A stretch of 30,514 bases of DNA from a virus: the IMG/VR virus record IMGVR_UViG_3300020472_000116, positions 1 to 30,514 of that record; one strand, 5' to 3'. Made by a program: the position numbers and the translations under genes. Positions within the stretch are counted from its first letter, which is position 1, and each line of letters starts with the position of its first letter. Below are positions 2,543-8,655 of the stretch, piece by piece. The notes beneath the pieces were generated by a model. It searched no databases. It saw only the letters and a list, made by a program, of their open reading frames with translations, and was not told the DNA's origin.

Positions 2543-3647
2543 CCTCCTGCTGCTTCATAGCAGATGATACCCATGTTTTTCTAGTTGTCAAGGCATTAGT
2601 TGCAGATGCCAAAGTATTTTTCATGTATGGGGTAACTGACGCAGGGTTAGCATGCCCACTAACAGACATGATCTGTGGTAGTGGCACACCACCATCAACC
2701 ATCTCCATTATACCAGACCTTCGTAAGTCTAGTAGACGTAGATCATCAGACAACTTAGCCCGGCGTATGACACGCCTACCTAATTGGGATAGGTTCATCT
2801 TACCATAAGGATGATATGCCCCATCAGTGGGGTTTACATTAGGTGCTACGTACCTCTGAAAGCCAAAGTCTTTTCTCTGATCAATCAAAGTTTGTCTTAA
2901 TATATCATTCACAGGTAACTCCACCTCTGCCCTACGTTTAGACTGTTGTAAATATAACACGGTCATGTCCTTATTGAATCTATCCCACTCTAATACACGC
3001 ATGTCACCGACACGCTGACAAAACTCATAGGCCATCTGTACTATTAACGCAATGCTACGTGTAGAGAAGTCAGCGTATGCCACATCAAGAAACTTTTTAA
3101 CCTCATCCCTTTTCCAAATGGCAGTTCTTTTTTGGGCAGCCACACGTTTAATGTTAGCAAAAGGATTCTTATAGGCTTGCTCTTGTTCAATAGCATGATT
3201 GTATACACGTGATACGCAGGTACATACATGATTAGCAAAGCTAACACCACGTTCAAGCCACAGTTGATAGTGTTTCTTGGCTACCTTAGAACTAATATCC
3301 ATAAATCTCCTCTGTCCTAGTGACTTATTTGCAACAGATAAAAAGTATTTGTAATCCTTCTGTGAAAAATCTCTTAACTTTTGAAAGTCATATGATTCCA
3401 AGTAGCTGTTGATCAGACATGTCAAGGTACTATTTGATTTTAAGTTTGCACCTGTTGCATTTTTATCATACCATTCATCTATCTTCTGGTTGTCTTCACG
3501 TACCAGTTTACGTACCTGCTTCAGGTCAGACCCAAACTGTCTGCGTGTGACAACACCTGCATCGACTAACTTCTGTGGTGGGTTGAATCTGTACTCAACC
3601 ACACCACATGCCGTAGTCCTAGCTTGTGTATATCTAGGAAGTCTCAT
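2535..3647 (-). CDS. Tyrosine recombinase (phage integrase)
   Basis: The 370-aa protein has a SAM-like N-terminal DNA-binding region (about residues 75-160) and a C-terminal catalytic domain. Visible catalytic positions are R212 in FCQRVGDM, K237 after the beta hairpin, R309 in LDLRRS, GH at 331-332 and nucleophile Y341 in VTPYMK. The box II pattern is normally HxxR, but the His position is Leu306 (LDLR). The enzyme would recombine attP with a host attB and give the phage a lysogenic option. It lies between DUF932 and primase genes with overlaps on both sides, so it is expressed with replication genes, with no attP-like intergenic space beside it. Confidence 0.85.
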   Translation of the reverse strand: MRLPRYTQARTTACGVVEYRFNPPQKLVDAGVVTRRQFGSDLKQVRKLVREDNQKIDEWYDKNATGANLKSNSTLTCLINSYLESYDFQKLRDFSQKDYKYFLSVANKSLGQRRFMDISSKVAKKHYQLWLERGVSFANHVCTCVSRVYNHAIEQEQAYKNPFANIKRVAAQKRTAIWKRDEVKKFLDVAYADFSTRSIALIVQMAYEFCQRVGDMRVLEWDRFNKDMTVLYLQQSKRRAEVELPVNDILRQTLIDQRKDFGFQRYVAPNVNPTDGAYHPYGKMNLSQLGRRVIRRAKLSDDLRLLDLRRSGIMEMVDGGVPLPQIMSVSGHANPASVTPYMKNTLASATNALTTRKTWVSSAMKQQEGV

Positions 3648-4534
3648 CTATTTATCCCCCACCTTCCTACAACAGTAGAATTATGGCTTGAGTTTACTAA
3701 GTCATTCCATATAGGGGAATCAATCCACTTAGCTACCTCTTGCTCACGCTTCCACATGGTGATAGCTTTCGTATCATTACCTGTGTTACGTACTGTGAAT
3801 CCATTACGCTCATCAGCATAGGATGCATAGTTAGTGAACGCACTATATAGGGCAAAGAGATTCTCACCACGCTTACGTGTCTCTTCTCTGTACAAGGCAA
3901 GCATCTTGTCTGCCTTTCTGTCATTGCCCATCAGGTGATCAAGCACAGACTTAACACACAGGGTACGTGTGCTAACCTTACACCAATCACTTAGCTTCTC
4001 TGCTTCATCTTCAAAGTTTACAACTGAATCAGCTAACTCACCTTGAAAGATATCTATGTTAAATAATGCAGAGTTCTTTTTCTTGAGGTAGTTGTGATCA
4101 CCTGTCACCATACCATTCAGACAGAACCCATCAATCAAACCGTAGAATACTTGGTTGGAACACTTGCCATCCACACCATGTAGGGCAACCATTCGTTTGA
4201 ATACTTCTGTTTCATGTAGGTCACTGGCAATAGTGATGCCTTGATCCTTGAAGATTGCATCCATCATAACGAATGCACCATTACGTGCTGATCGCCACTT
4301 AACTTCAGCTAATAGGCAGGACTCTACACCTAGTGTTTCTTCTACTGTAGCCCACACTTTATTGTAGTATTCACCATGACTAGTAAGTGCATAGTTATCC
4401 CCGACTATACCTAGATAATCTCCTGAGTACTCATTCACTATGTAAGAATCTCCTTTAAATAGAGTAGGTTCTTTGCGTACCTTAAAGTTTAAATCGTAAG
4501 GTAGTTGGTGGTTTGTTACAAAATCTAAAGCCAT
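3644..4534 (-). CDS. DUF932-like phage/plasmid protein
   Basis: The 296-aa product resembles the DUF932 family (phage/plasmid-like protein) in length and pattern: an N-terminal YLGIVGDNYAL-type segment, a central EVFKRMVALHG stretch and an FCLNGMVTGD motif near residue 140, equivalent to the family's conserved Cys-Asn-Gly box. The family is common on phages and plasmids and its biochemical role is unsettled. It is the first gene of a minus-strand operon with integrase, primase, helicase and nuclease, and its stop overlaps the integrase start (ATGA). The upstream gap holds a strong promoter with a palindrome over the -10 element. A CTCCTTT complement just before the ATG gives an AAAGGAG ribosome site. 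Confidence 0.6.
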   Translation of the reverse strand: MALDFVTNHQLPYDLNFKVRKEPTLFKGDSYIVNEYSGDYLGIVGDNYALTSHGEYYNKVWATVEETLGVESCLLAEVKWRSARNGAFVMMDAIFKDQGITIASDLHETEVFKRMVALHGVDGKCSNQVFYGLIDGFCLNGMVTGDHNYLKKKNSALFNIDIFQGELADSVVNFEDEAEKLSDWCKVSTRTLCVKSVLDHLMGNDRKADKMLALYREETRKRGENLFALYSAFTNYASYADERNGFTVRNTGNDTKAITMWKREQEVAKWIDSPIWNDLVNSSHNSTVVGRWGINR

Positions 4535-5285: not shown

Positions 5286-5825
5286 TTAAAAATCTCCTCT
5301 AACTTTTTGTATTAATGTGATTGCTTTAGTTAGTTCATCCTCTAGCTTAGTGATCTTATCTCTGTTAGCTTGCCACAGAATACCTAACCCACCTGCATCT
5401 GTCCATCTCTTAACATTAGTGTGCTTGTCATCGACAAGGATGTTAGGTGTACCATCTACTGTATGGGTAGCGTAGGTTTCTTTCTTGTGAGTGAAGACCA
5501 AGTAAGGTATCTTATCAGGCATAAGGTTATTCTTTTCTAACCACCTACGTTTCCAATAGGTACAGTTGGTGCTGTCATTACGCAATGGTGTAGAGCATAT
5601 GCCCCAATCCAAATGAGGATATTTATATGTCAACTCTTTGACATGACCTACAAGAGGATACGTAGTGTCAAACATATCTAAGTGTCCAAAGAAACTTGTG
5701 TCTTTTAGTTGGGCAAGTGCGTCATCTATATCAGGGATATCTTTCCAATGTGTTACCTTGAATCTCCTCTCAAGTCCACCAAAGAAATCAGCTAACACAC
5801 CATCCATATCTAAGTATATAATCAT
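5286..5825 (-). CDS. HAD-family 5'(3')-deoxyribonucleotidase-like phosphatase
   Basis: The 179-aa protein opens with IIYLDMDGVLADFF (residues 2-15): HAD motif I, with the nucleophile Asp and the general acid two residues later, in the form used by NT5C-like deoxyribonucleotidases. CSTP near residue 78 fits motif II, and NILVDDKHTNVKRW near residues 128-141 supplies the acidic motif. The family removes phosphate from deoxynucleoside monophosphates, so the phage may use it to tune dNTP pools or discard unwanted nucleotides; a neighbouring gene encodes a DNA methyltransferase. The ribosome site AGGAGTAAAGAG is shared, as an 18-base repeat, with the gene before it. Confidence 0.78.
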   Translation of the reverse strand: MIIYLDMDGVLADFFGGLERRFKVTHWKDIPDIDDALAQLKDTSFFGHLDMFDTTYPLVGHVKELTYKYPHLDWGICSTPLRNDSTNCTYWKRRWLEKNNLMPDKIPYLVFTHKKETYATHTVDGTPNILVDDKHTNVKRWTDAGGLGILWQANRDKITKLEDELTKAITLIQKVRGDF

Positions 5826-5988
5826 CTCTTTACTCCTATTCTGTACTCTCTACCACCACTAATTCATACTCGTCAAACATTTCTCGTATTTGCTTTTCTG
5901 ATTCAGCGTAGAGATATAAATATCTTTGTTGGTTATCTATATACTGTTCTTTGTATTCTACATAGAATCTAATCATCTCTTTACTCCT
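5820..5988. repeat. Two 18-base direct repeats flanking a 46-aa gene
   Basis: The sequence AATCATCTCTTTACTCCT is present at 5820-5837 and again at 5971-5988. On the minus strand each copy holds a ribosome site (AGGAG) plus the ATGATT start of a gene (the deoxyribonucleotidase-like gene and the 46-aa gene). Recombination between them would remove the 46-aa gene cleanly. Confidence 0.85.
5836..5976 (-). CDS. Hypothetical 46-aa acidic protein
   Basis: ATG at 5976 overlaps the methyltransferase TGA (ATGA) and is preceded by AAAGGAGTAAAGAG, a very good ribosome site. The 46-aa product is Tyr- and Glu-rich (MIRFYVEYKEQYIDNQQRYL at its start) and ends near the ribosome site of the next gene. No family is recognised. 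Short spacing on both sides and strong initiation signals argue that it is expressed. Confidence 0.6.
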   Translation of the reverse strand: MIRFYVEYKEQYIDNQQRYLYLYAESEKQIREMFDEYELVVVESTE

Positions 5989-6980
5989 TTCAATGCTTGG
6001 TATCCACAGCCACAGCCATCAAACAAACTCACGACAGTACCCAACTTATCTTGTGGTATGCCATTGAGTATGTGCTTGATCACATCAACTGTCCACCCAT
6101 TACCTATCATCTTGTATCTCCTTGAATTGCTGATAGGTTTAATATCTTCAGCAGATTCAAAAGAAAATACTTCTACTTTCTCACCATCATCAAAGTTACC
6201 ATACTTTGTGTACTCATCAGGCATAGTCTGTAGACGTTCACACTCAAGAGGTGTCAATGCTCTCCAACGCAAGTCACCATCCTCAACCTTCGGCATGCGC
6301 CACCCACCTTGCATGGTGGTCAGGCCAGAGGACTTAGCCTTACGAGAGTAGACACGCTTGATAATGTCATAGCCTTTCAGGTCAGCTTCACCCACTTGTC
6401 TGCATTGAGTGTGCTTGTTAAACACTACTTGTCTACGTGCTTTCTCAAAGTACATCTTCATAGATCCACCCTTGAAATAGTTAGCGTCTACACAGTATGC
6501 TTTCTCCCTGTCGGTCATGCTCTCATCCTCAAGGATATCCTCAAGGTTGATACCAAGATCAGGCAGATCGTCATGGGGTATGTTAGTCCAATACAAACGC
6601 TTACGATTCTGTGCAGATACAGACGCAGAGTTATGTATACGTGGCTCACACCCAAACTCACGTGAGAATACATCCATGTACTCCTTCTTCATAGGTGTCT
6701 CCTCAATGAGAAAGTACTTAGGCTTCCACTGGTGAAACAATCTGAAGAACTCTAGCGTTGGCTTGGCTCTCTCGTCATTGAAGTTAAGCTGATTACCTGC
6801 AAAGGAAAAGGGTTGACAAGGTGGGCCTGCCATTAGCAGGTCTATACCTTTGTGTACATACATAGGATGCTTGTGCATATCAAGTACGCTACCCATCTGC
6901 TTTACCATAGGATGATTGTAGTGAGCGACCCCCATAGCGTAGGGGTCTATCTCACTTGCGAATGCTTGTTGATATTGCAT
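5973..6980 (-). CDS. Cytosine-C5 DNA methyltransferase with circularly permuted motif order
   Basis: The 335-aa enzyme contains ASEID (8-12, region after motif I), PPCQPFS (53-59, motif IV with catalytic C55), LIEET (91-95, motif VI, normally ENV), QNRKR (124-128, motif VIII), LTPLECERLQTMPDEY (242-257, motif IX) and YKMIGNGWTVDV (289-300, motif X). Motif I, which binds the methyl donor and normally lies at the N-terminus, appears only at 317-326 (VSLFDGCGCG), 9 residues from the stop. The fold therefore seems opened between motif I and the ASEID strand. It would transfer methyl groups to cytosine, perhaps protecting phage DNA from restriction. It starts at a TAATG overlap with the upstream gene. 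No restriction endonuclease is adjacent. Confidence 0.85.
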   Translation of the reverse strand: MQYQQAFASEIDPYAMGVAHYNHPMVKQMGSVLDMHKHPMYVHKGIDLLMAGPPCQPFSFAGNQLNFNDERAKPTLEFFRLFHQWKPKYFLIEETPMKKEYMDVFSREFGCEPRIHNSASVSAQNRKRLYWTNIPHDDLPDLGINLEDILEDESMTDREKAYCVDANYFKGGSMKMYFEKARRQVVFNKHTQCRQVGEADLKGYDIIKRVYSRKAKSSGLTTMQGGWRMPKVEDGDLRWRALTPLECERLQTMPDEYTKYGNFDDGEKVEVFSFESAEDIKPISNSRRYKMIGNGWTVDVIKHILNGIPQDKLGTVVSLFDGCGCGYQALKGVKR

Positions 6981-7836: not shown

Positions 7837-7924
7837 AGCTACCTTTTCCTTTCTTAGGTTTAACTACTTGTTTAGGTTTGCGTAGCATCAGCATTGCCTT
7901 TGCTACAGGGTTAATAGGTTTCAT
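7787..7924 (-). CDS. arfA: ArfA-like alternative ribosome-rescue factor
   Basis: The 45-aa product reads NPVAKAMLMLRKP (5-17), then KPKKGKGSYDRAKAKR (22-37), which lines up with E. coli ArfA around its conserved KKGKGSYxRK core and the preceding hydrophobic helix. ArfA occupies the empty mRNA channel of ribosomes stalled on messages without a stop codon and recruits RF2 to release the chain. A phage copy could keep ribosomes free when host mRNA is being degraded. It starts at an ATGA overlap with the 244-aa gene and overlaps the 48-aa gene by 50 bases. The match is by eye. The E. coli protein is 72 aa but is functional when truncated, so 45 aa is short yet plausible. Confidence 0.68.
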   Translation of the reverse strand: MKPINPVAKAMLMLRKPKQVVKPKKGKGSYDRAKAKRNALRSQEL

Positions 7925-8655
7925 GCTACCCACTTCTTTCCTGTGCCATGTGCAGGTATAAGTATGGACTTGGCATTGATCTTCATGCCACTACATAGCT
8001 TACACTTGTCACATGTTGTACGTCTACCTGCTTCTTCACTTGCAGGACATAGTATCTCCTTGTCTTTTACCATAGAGGTAAGGTGTCCTACCCTAAAGGT
8101 ACGTTCACCTTTTGCCCAAGCTACCTTGGCTTCTTCCACTGTGTCAGCACTACGCATACACACAGTAGGATCGTAGTCAGCACCAACTGTAGTAGCTTGG
8201 TGACTATAGGCTGTGTGTGCTTTAGCATTAGCAATCCATCTCTTGTTCAGGTAGGCAGGTACACAAGCAGGATCGCCATACATACCTAGTCGTACAGTCC
8301 TACCATCCACTAAAGCATTGTAGTTTGTCATGCTTATACGTGGGTATTTACCTGCCTTGTATGCTTTGTACACACCTAGTATACCTAGCAACATGACATA
8401 GCAACCACGTTCATCAGCCGTAGCCCGATCATCTCTGTCGTGTGGCTTGCCACGTAAGTGACAAGTGCCACAGATAGAGTAGTCCTCACCACTCTTGTTG
8501 GCAGAGATAGGATCAATGTCAGTACGTATGTACAGTATCTGCACCATCTTACCTGTCTTGCTATTGTTACTACCTGTTAGGGCTATCGCTACGATAGGCT
8601 TGCCATCAAGTAAGCTATCACCTTCGTACAGTATGTATCCACTTGGCTTAGTCAT
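7921..8655 (-). CDS. Conserved phage protein of unknown function with Cys clusters
   Basis: The 244-aa protein has a GKPIVAIALTGSNNSKTG-type N-terminal segment, SICGTCHLRG near residues 60-70, a VRLGMYGDPACVPAYL block, and a C-terminal LCPASEEAGRRTTCDKCKLC near residues 203-222. Four or more paired cysteines suggest a zinc or metal site. I recognise this overall pattern as recurring in tailed phages, but no function is established that I can name. Its ribosome site (AAAGG) lies directly after one copy of the palindromic repeat. Confidence 0.65.
   Translation of the reverse strand: MTKPSGYILYEGDSLLDGKPIVAIALTGSNNSKTGKMVQILYIRTDIDPISANKSGEDYSICGTCHLRGKPHDRDDRATADERGCYVMLLGILGVYKAYKAGKYPRISMTNYNALVDGRTVRLGMYGDPACVPAYLNKRWIANAKAHTAYSHQATTVGADYDPTVCMRSADTVEEAKVAWAKGERTFRVGHLTSMVKDKEILCPASEEAGRRTTCDKCKLCSGMKINAKSILIPAHGTGKKWVA

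Follow-up and report, generated by a model that had tools for sequence, protein, structure and literature searches.

The stretch of DNA analysed here, called the window below, comprises the 30,514 nucleotides of the IMG/VR virus record IMGVR_UViG_3300020472_000116. It carries a gene for a C5-cytosine DNA methyltransferase (MTase) whose conserved motifs stand in an unusual order (Table 1). The protein starts at MQYQQAFASEID, the strand that comes after motif I in its relatives, and its only motif I, VVSLFDGCGCG, occupies residues 316-326. Both features had been claimed in the original prediction, which placed motif I at residues 317-326; SLFDGCGCG is found at 318-326, within one residue.

Table 1. 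The methyltransferase gene of the window, its motifs and the adjoining genes (residue numbers refer to the MTase protein).
Feature	Position	Strand	Remarks
Separate upstream ORF, 111 aa	6980..7315	(-)	TAATG junction with the MTase gene: stop and start overlap
C5-cytosine DNA methyltransferase gene, probably permuted	5973..6980	(-)	335 aa, ATG start; motif order II-III-IV-VI-VIII-TRD-IX-X-I
Motif II strand FASEID, new N-terminal element	6945..6962	(-)	Residues 7-12
Motif III region GSVLDM	6876..6893	(-)	Residues 30-35; G30 invariant
Motif IV GPPCQPFSFAG	6795..6827	(-)	Residues 52-62; G52, P54 and C55 invariant; Cys55 presumed catalytic
Motif VI, EET in place of ENV	6696..6704	(-)	Residues 93-95; Glu93 retained
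Motif VIII QNRKR	6597..6611	(-)	Residues 124-128
Variable region, presumed TRD	6267..6533	(-)	Residues ~150-238; from the position in the family and low pLDDT at 154-191
Motif IX RALTPLECERLQTMPD	6216..6263	(-)	Residues 240-255
Motif X RYKMIGNGWTVDVIKHIL	6066..6119	(-)	Residues 288-305; contains GNGW
Linker NGIPQDKLGT, old C-terminus to motif I	6036..6065	(-)	Residues 306-315
Relocated motif I strand and helix VVSLFDGCGCGYQALK	5988..6035	(-)	Residues 316-331
Last codons KGVKR-stop, ribosome site and start of the next gene (AGGAGTAAAGAGATGA)	5973..5990	(-)	
Next gene, 46-aa ORF	5836..5976	(-)	Start inside the MTase stop codon

The upstream ORF contains neither motif I nor any other methyltransferase motif and has no confident family (one sub-threshold Pfam match), in agreement with the earlier view that it is a separate gene. 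At the other end, the last MTase codons, GGA GTA AAG AGA TGA, form AGGAGTAAAGAGATGA and thus double as the ribosome site of the next gene, as had also been noticed. A 25-nt element holding a ribosome site and start (AGGAGTAAAGAGATGATTA) occurs twice, at 5813-5837 and 5964-5988, in nearly identical copies that precede two successive genes, one of them overlapping the MTase stop. Elsewhere in the window, ORFs 7921-8655 and 3644-4534 gave below-cut-off Pfam matches to DUF7227 and DUF932, respectively, and ORF 7921-8655 strongly matches phrog_2554, a PHROG without assigned function. In the large terminase, the phage shares 79% identity with Roseobacter phage CRP-1 and Puniceispirillum phage HMO-2011, which makes it one of the HMO-2011 type. 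An integrase gene and ORFs resembling primase and helicase, in sequence and position, lie nearby; of the neighbouring ORFs searched, none was recognisable as a restriction gene. The related HMO-2011-type phages CRP-603 and CRP-9 carry linear C5-MTases.

The Pfam profile PF00145 scores 92.9 bits against the protein (cut-off 22), aligning residues 4-308 with profile positions 23-322; positions 1-22 remain unmatched at the N-terminus, and motif I is therefore absent there. TIGR00675 gives 92.4 bits, under its cut-off of 100.65. The motif set of the PF00145 type is complete in the MTase: I, IV (PC), VI (E), VIII (QxRxR), IX and X. A motif-I profile derived from 43 linear relatives was run over the window in six frames; the MTase tail scored 20.9 bits (E 9e-6) at protein residues 316-331, or 318-333 when counted along the stop-to-stop frame, two residues longer than the protein. 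The runner-up place in the window reached 5.2 bits. Shuffling the MTase protein 5000 times gave at most 5.4 bits, which rules out a chance motif. The six-frame scan and the whole-record searches likewise found no separate N-terminal piece of the MTase, missing or supplied in trans.

The circular order emerges from two further alignments. The profile of the linear family places frame residues 4-312 on its positions 23-359 and then frame residues 318-333 on positions 3-18. In a phmmer comparison, DNMT3C (PDB chain 8tci_A) is matched in three pieces, residues 316-332 on 8-24, 5-144 on 31-180 and 271-305 on 239-274, which again is a circular order, the 316-332 piece alone being weak (1.3 bits). 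Both methods put motif X before motif I in one chain.

Seven further IMG/VR contigs (L001-L007) encode proteins 69-92% identical to the window MTase with the same motif order, and a frameshift or assembly error was rejected on this ground. An in-frame motif I upstream in other members was looked for and none was found; the remaining relatives inspected in the IMG/VR scan have an N-terminal motif I. The ORFs in the fetched loci, counted with overlapping loci included, comprise 382 linear enzymes, 16 window-type enzymes (from 8 contigs, all fetched twice), 67 permutants broken between motifs III and IV (III/IV type) plus 20 partial ones, and 3 fused tandems (2 contigs). Linker length and the stop right after the motif-I helix are identical in all window-type contigs. 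In the tail dN is 0-0.06 versus 0.04-0.15 in the rest of the gene, and dN/dS over the gene is about 0.14-0.23; these estimates indicate that the relocated tail is under purifying selection. Tail dS is also low, on few sites, which may be an effect of the overlapping ribosome site. Window-type enzymes group as a single clade, at 100/100, in a tree on motifs IV-X, where their neighbours are linear phage enzymes. Of the best 80 places in bacterial genomes, none held a permuted enzyme of this type; only a fused tandem appeared (L247, a Lachnospiraceae MAG). A plasmid search gave distant matches only.

Motif VI reads EET, as originally noted, in 6 of 6 distinct members of the window clade and in 0 of 289 linear relatives; 284 of the latter have ENV, ENN or ENT and 5 were unmatched by the search pattern. 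EET replaces an asparagine kept in nearly all relatives, a change that could mean altered or reduced activity. In L006, motif IV reads GVPC.

Structure prediction had been proposed as a check of the permutation. A first AlphaFold2 alignment consisted mostly of linear relatives and left the tail with low confidence, because linear relatives have no C-terminal motif I. The second alignment had 66 rows, 30 of them added rows with the X-I junction (36 rows in total contain it), and gave a mean pLDDT of 81.6 and a pTM of 0.83, with the tail modelled as a strand (312-319) and a helix (325-332) at pLDDT 83-94. VIA-align matched the model to M.HhaI with Z 23.3 and to M.MpeI (4dkj) with Z 21.8, putting model residue 1 on M.HhaI residue 31 and M.MpeI residue 36. 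The aligned range covers residues 1 to ~312-313 and the tail lies beyond it, as expected of a sequential aligner. The predicted fold is that of a C5-MTase, its core superposed and its tail beyond the aligned range, and the tail would be placed in the SAM pocket.

Conservation in seven relatives, the swapped-order profile, the three-piece DNMT3C alignment and the predicted structure support the I/II permutation put forward in the original prediction. We consider it highly probable that the window MTase is one complete, circularly permuted C5-MTase, broken between motifs I and II and working in the following manner. The short linker would connect the old C-terminus, after motif X, with motif I, and the chain would now begin and end in the loop that separates the motif-I helix from the motif-II strand. 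Folding would give the usual C5-MTase, the C-terminal strand and helix inserting beside the N-terminal motif-II strand and completing the SAM pocket, and Cys55 and Glu93 would transfer a methyl group to C5 of a flipped cytosine. The protein is presumed to be an active enzyme. An orphan methylase in a phage is usually read as protecting phage DNA. The present phage presumably uses the MTase in this way, modifying its own DNA against host restriction. The permuted gene may have originated via gene duplication, followed by trimming at both ends.

Could the C-terminal SLFDGCGCG instead be left over from another methyltransferase, frameshifted or truncated, the N-terminal motif I having been lost? 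Tandem C5-MTases, common in relatives (L090, L091, Psychrobacillus phage Perkons), would be a possible source, but no MTase sequence or remnant follows the tail, where a different gene begins in the stop codon, and on this ground the tail was rejected as a derivative of a second MTase. A second methyltransferase, which had been named as one observation that would overturn the permutation, was looked for and none was found: the window record and four related window-type records, searched whole (two of 57 and 60 kb), each hold a single C5-MTase. Moreover, the tail remains conserved across eight contigs, even at 69% identity, and shows few amino-acid changes, and neither the linker length nor the stop position varies among them. 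This origin of the tail is therefore very improbable. A split enzyme, which would receive its motif I in trans from a different protein of the phage or the host, seems still less credible. Fragments of M.MpeI split between motifs II and III do complement each other (PMC5944983), and L168 has a separate upstream ORF with motifs I-III; the window MTase, however, has its motif I in cis at the C-terminus, and a free motif-I fragment was not found in the phage records searched.

A decaying or inactive permutant deserves somewhat more attention, though it too is unlikely. The EET enzyme might no longer methylate and might have taken another role, for example DNA binding; every member has Glu for the Asn of ENV, and the GVPC of L006 points the same way. 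Against this, Cys55, Glu93, QxRxR, motif X and FxGxGxG are retained, dN/dS is about 0.2 across the gene, and laboratory permutants cut at the same place are active (PMC5944983). The reading as a complete permuted methyltransferase is thus preferred over all three.

Junction queries brought out III/IV permutants in dozens of phage contigs (L089, L163-L168, L209, L323, L324, L330-L345 and most of L405-L458), mostly unannotated; that of Phage nd4 (WRQ08028.1) is annotated as hypothetical. These proteins begin with motif IV (MxDLLLGGSPCQ or MIKILIGGSPCTYWS) and close with I-II-III. Like the window MTase, they are broken in the SAM-binding half and run from motif X into motif I through a linker about as long; unlike it, they carry motifs II and III at the C-terminus as well, and their cores lie elsewhere in the tree. 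The I/II permutation is therefore not isolated, since III/IV permuted enzymes are common in phage contigs. In L102 (near 2700) and L322 (near 2890), which share the III/IV order, the variable region is interrupted by a frame change that may be a sequencing error, decay or switching. The profiles phrog_17284 and phrog_16427 appear to span motif X and then motif I, and may already hold permuted members that are not labelled as such.

Several phage loci fit a permutation by duplication, judging from their arrangement. Two complete C5-MTases are fused in one ORF in L091:2242-3948, a 282-kb phage contig, and in L247:2221-4026, the bacterial MAG. In L168, a 281-nt direct repeat (88%) at 2073-2353 and 3091-3371 carries motifs I-III, so that two I-III blocks flank one MTase core; the first block is in another frame and has an altered motif I (FDGIATAR). 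This duplicate block looks like an intermediate of the process. A perfect 31-nt repeat brackets the MTase gene of L165. Arrays of two or three adjacent C5-MTase genes, raw material for permutation, are seen in L325 (Psychrobacillus phage Perkons, 64386-67339) and L090. At the ends of the window gene there is no repeat of the I-II segment on both sides, the sole repeat found being the ribosome site, and the duplication route is therefore not shown for the window clade itself. The L163-L168 loci resemble one another in their flanks and I-III block but have widely different cores, which scatter in the tree, suggesting core exchange by recombination; the at least six changes of the III/IV type on the motif IV-X tree are partly due to such exchange. 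The window clade and the III/IV permutants may or may not share an origin: with p-AU 0.118, a tree that joins the window clade to L164 and L168 is not rejected, and the tree itself does not unite them.

Natural C5-MTases thus probably extend beyond the one topology recorded in REBASE, with phage permutants at I/II and III/IV that would have arisen via duplication, with intermediates visible, and with an EET motif that might alter catalysis. Type B topologies (II/III break) are active in the laboratory and were absent from nature in a 2018 survey, for which it was proposed that SAM binding may suffer (PMC5944983). Natural I/II and III/IV permutants persisting under selection bear on this proposal (PMC5944983), and they are enzymes on which SAM affinity can be measured; by analogy, a lowering of affinity of the type B kind could also apply to the window MTase. 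The phage loci hold apparent duplication intermediates, otherwise known from models and directed evolution, so that the path may be read in sequence. For annotation, permuted MTases are easily called truncated or, as in Phage nd4, hypothetical.

Among known systems, the closest in topology are engineered. Circular permutants of M.MpeI and M.SssI have been constructed in the laboratory; cp35M.MpeI, although poorly soluble, and cp33M.SssI both showed activity in E. coli (PMC5944983). In these, as in the window MTase, the old termini are joined and the chain starts past the motif-I helix, before the motif-II strand. The break in the window MTase is that of cp35M.MpeI, because model residue 1 falls on M.MpeI residue 36, just past the motif-I helix. 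From its numbering, cp35 would belong to class A, the wording of PMC5944983 defining only class B (II/III). These constructs derive from CG-specific mycoplasma and spiroplasma enzymes, whereas the window MTase is natural, comes from a marine phage and has EET in motif VI.

The linear C5-MTases of Roseobacter phages CRP-603 and CRP-9 and of the IMG/VR loci L008, L035 and L399 belong to the same family and have a similar core, being roughly 40-50% identical along about 90% of the chain; their motif I, however, is N-terminal, with none at the C-terminus, and their motif VI reads ENV or ENN. Natural permutants of the M.BssHII / M.Alw26I type (type H or J) resemble the window MTase in being circularly permuted C5-MTases with motif X before motif I. 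However, they are broken near the TRD, in the variable region, which puts IX-X ahead of I-VIII, whereas the window MTase is broken in the SAM-binding half, with its N-terminus between I and II. A survey of 20,677 REBASE entries listed 27 natural permuted C5-MTases, all 27 broken in the variable region (PMC5944983), and our literature search, which took in few subscription journals, found no report of natural permuted C5-MTases from phage or with a break outside that region. As to the suggestion that the phage enzyme could be a distinct class, its topology is not wholly novel, since the engineered equivalents cp35M.MpeI and cp33M.SssI exist, but as all 27 REBASE permutants are of the variable-region type, its natural I/II break represents a new topology within a known kind.
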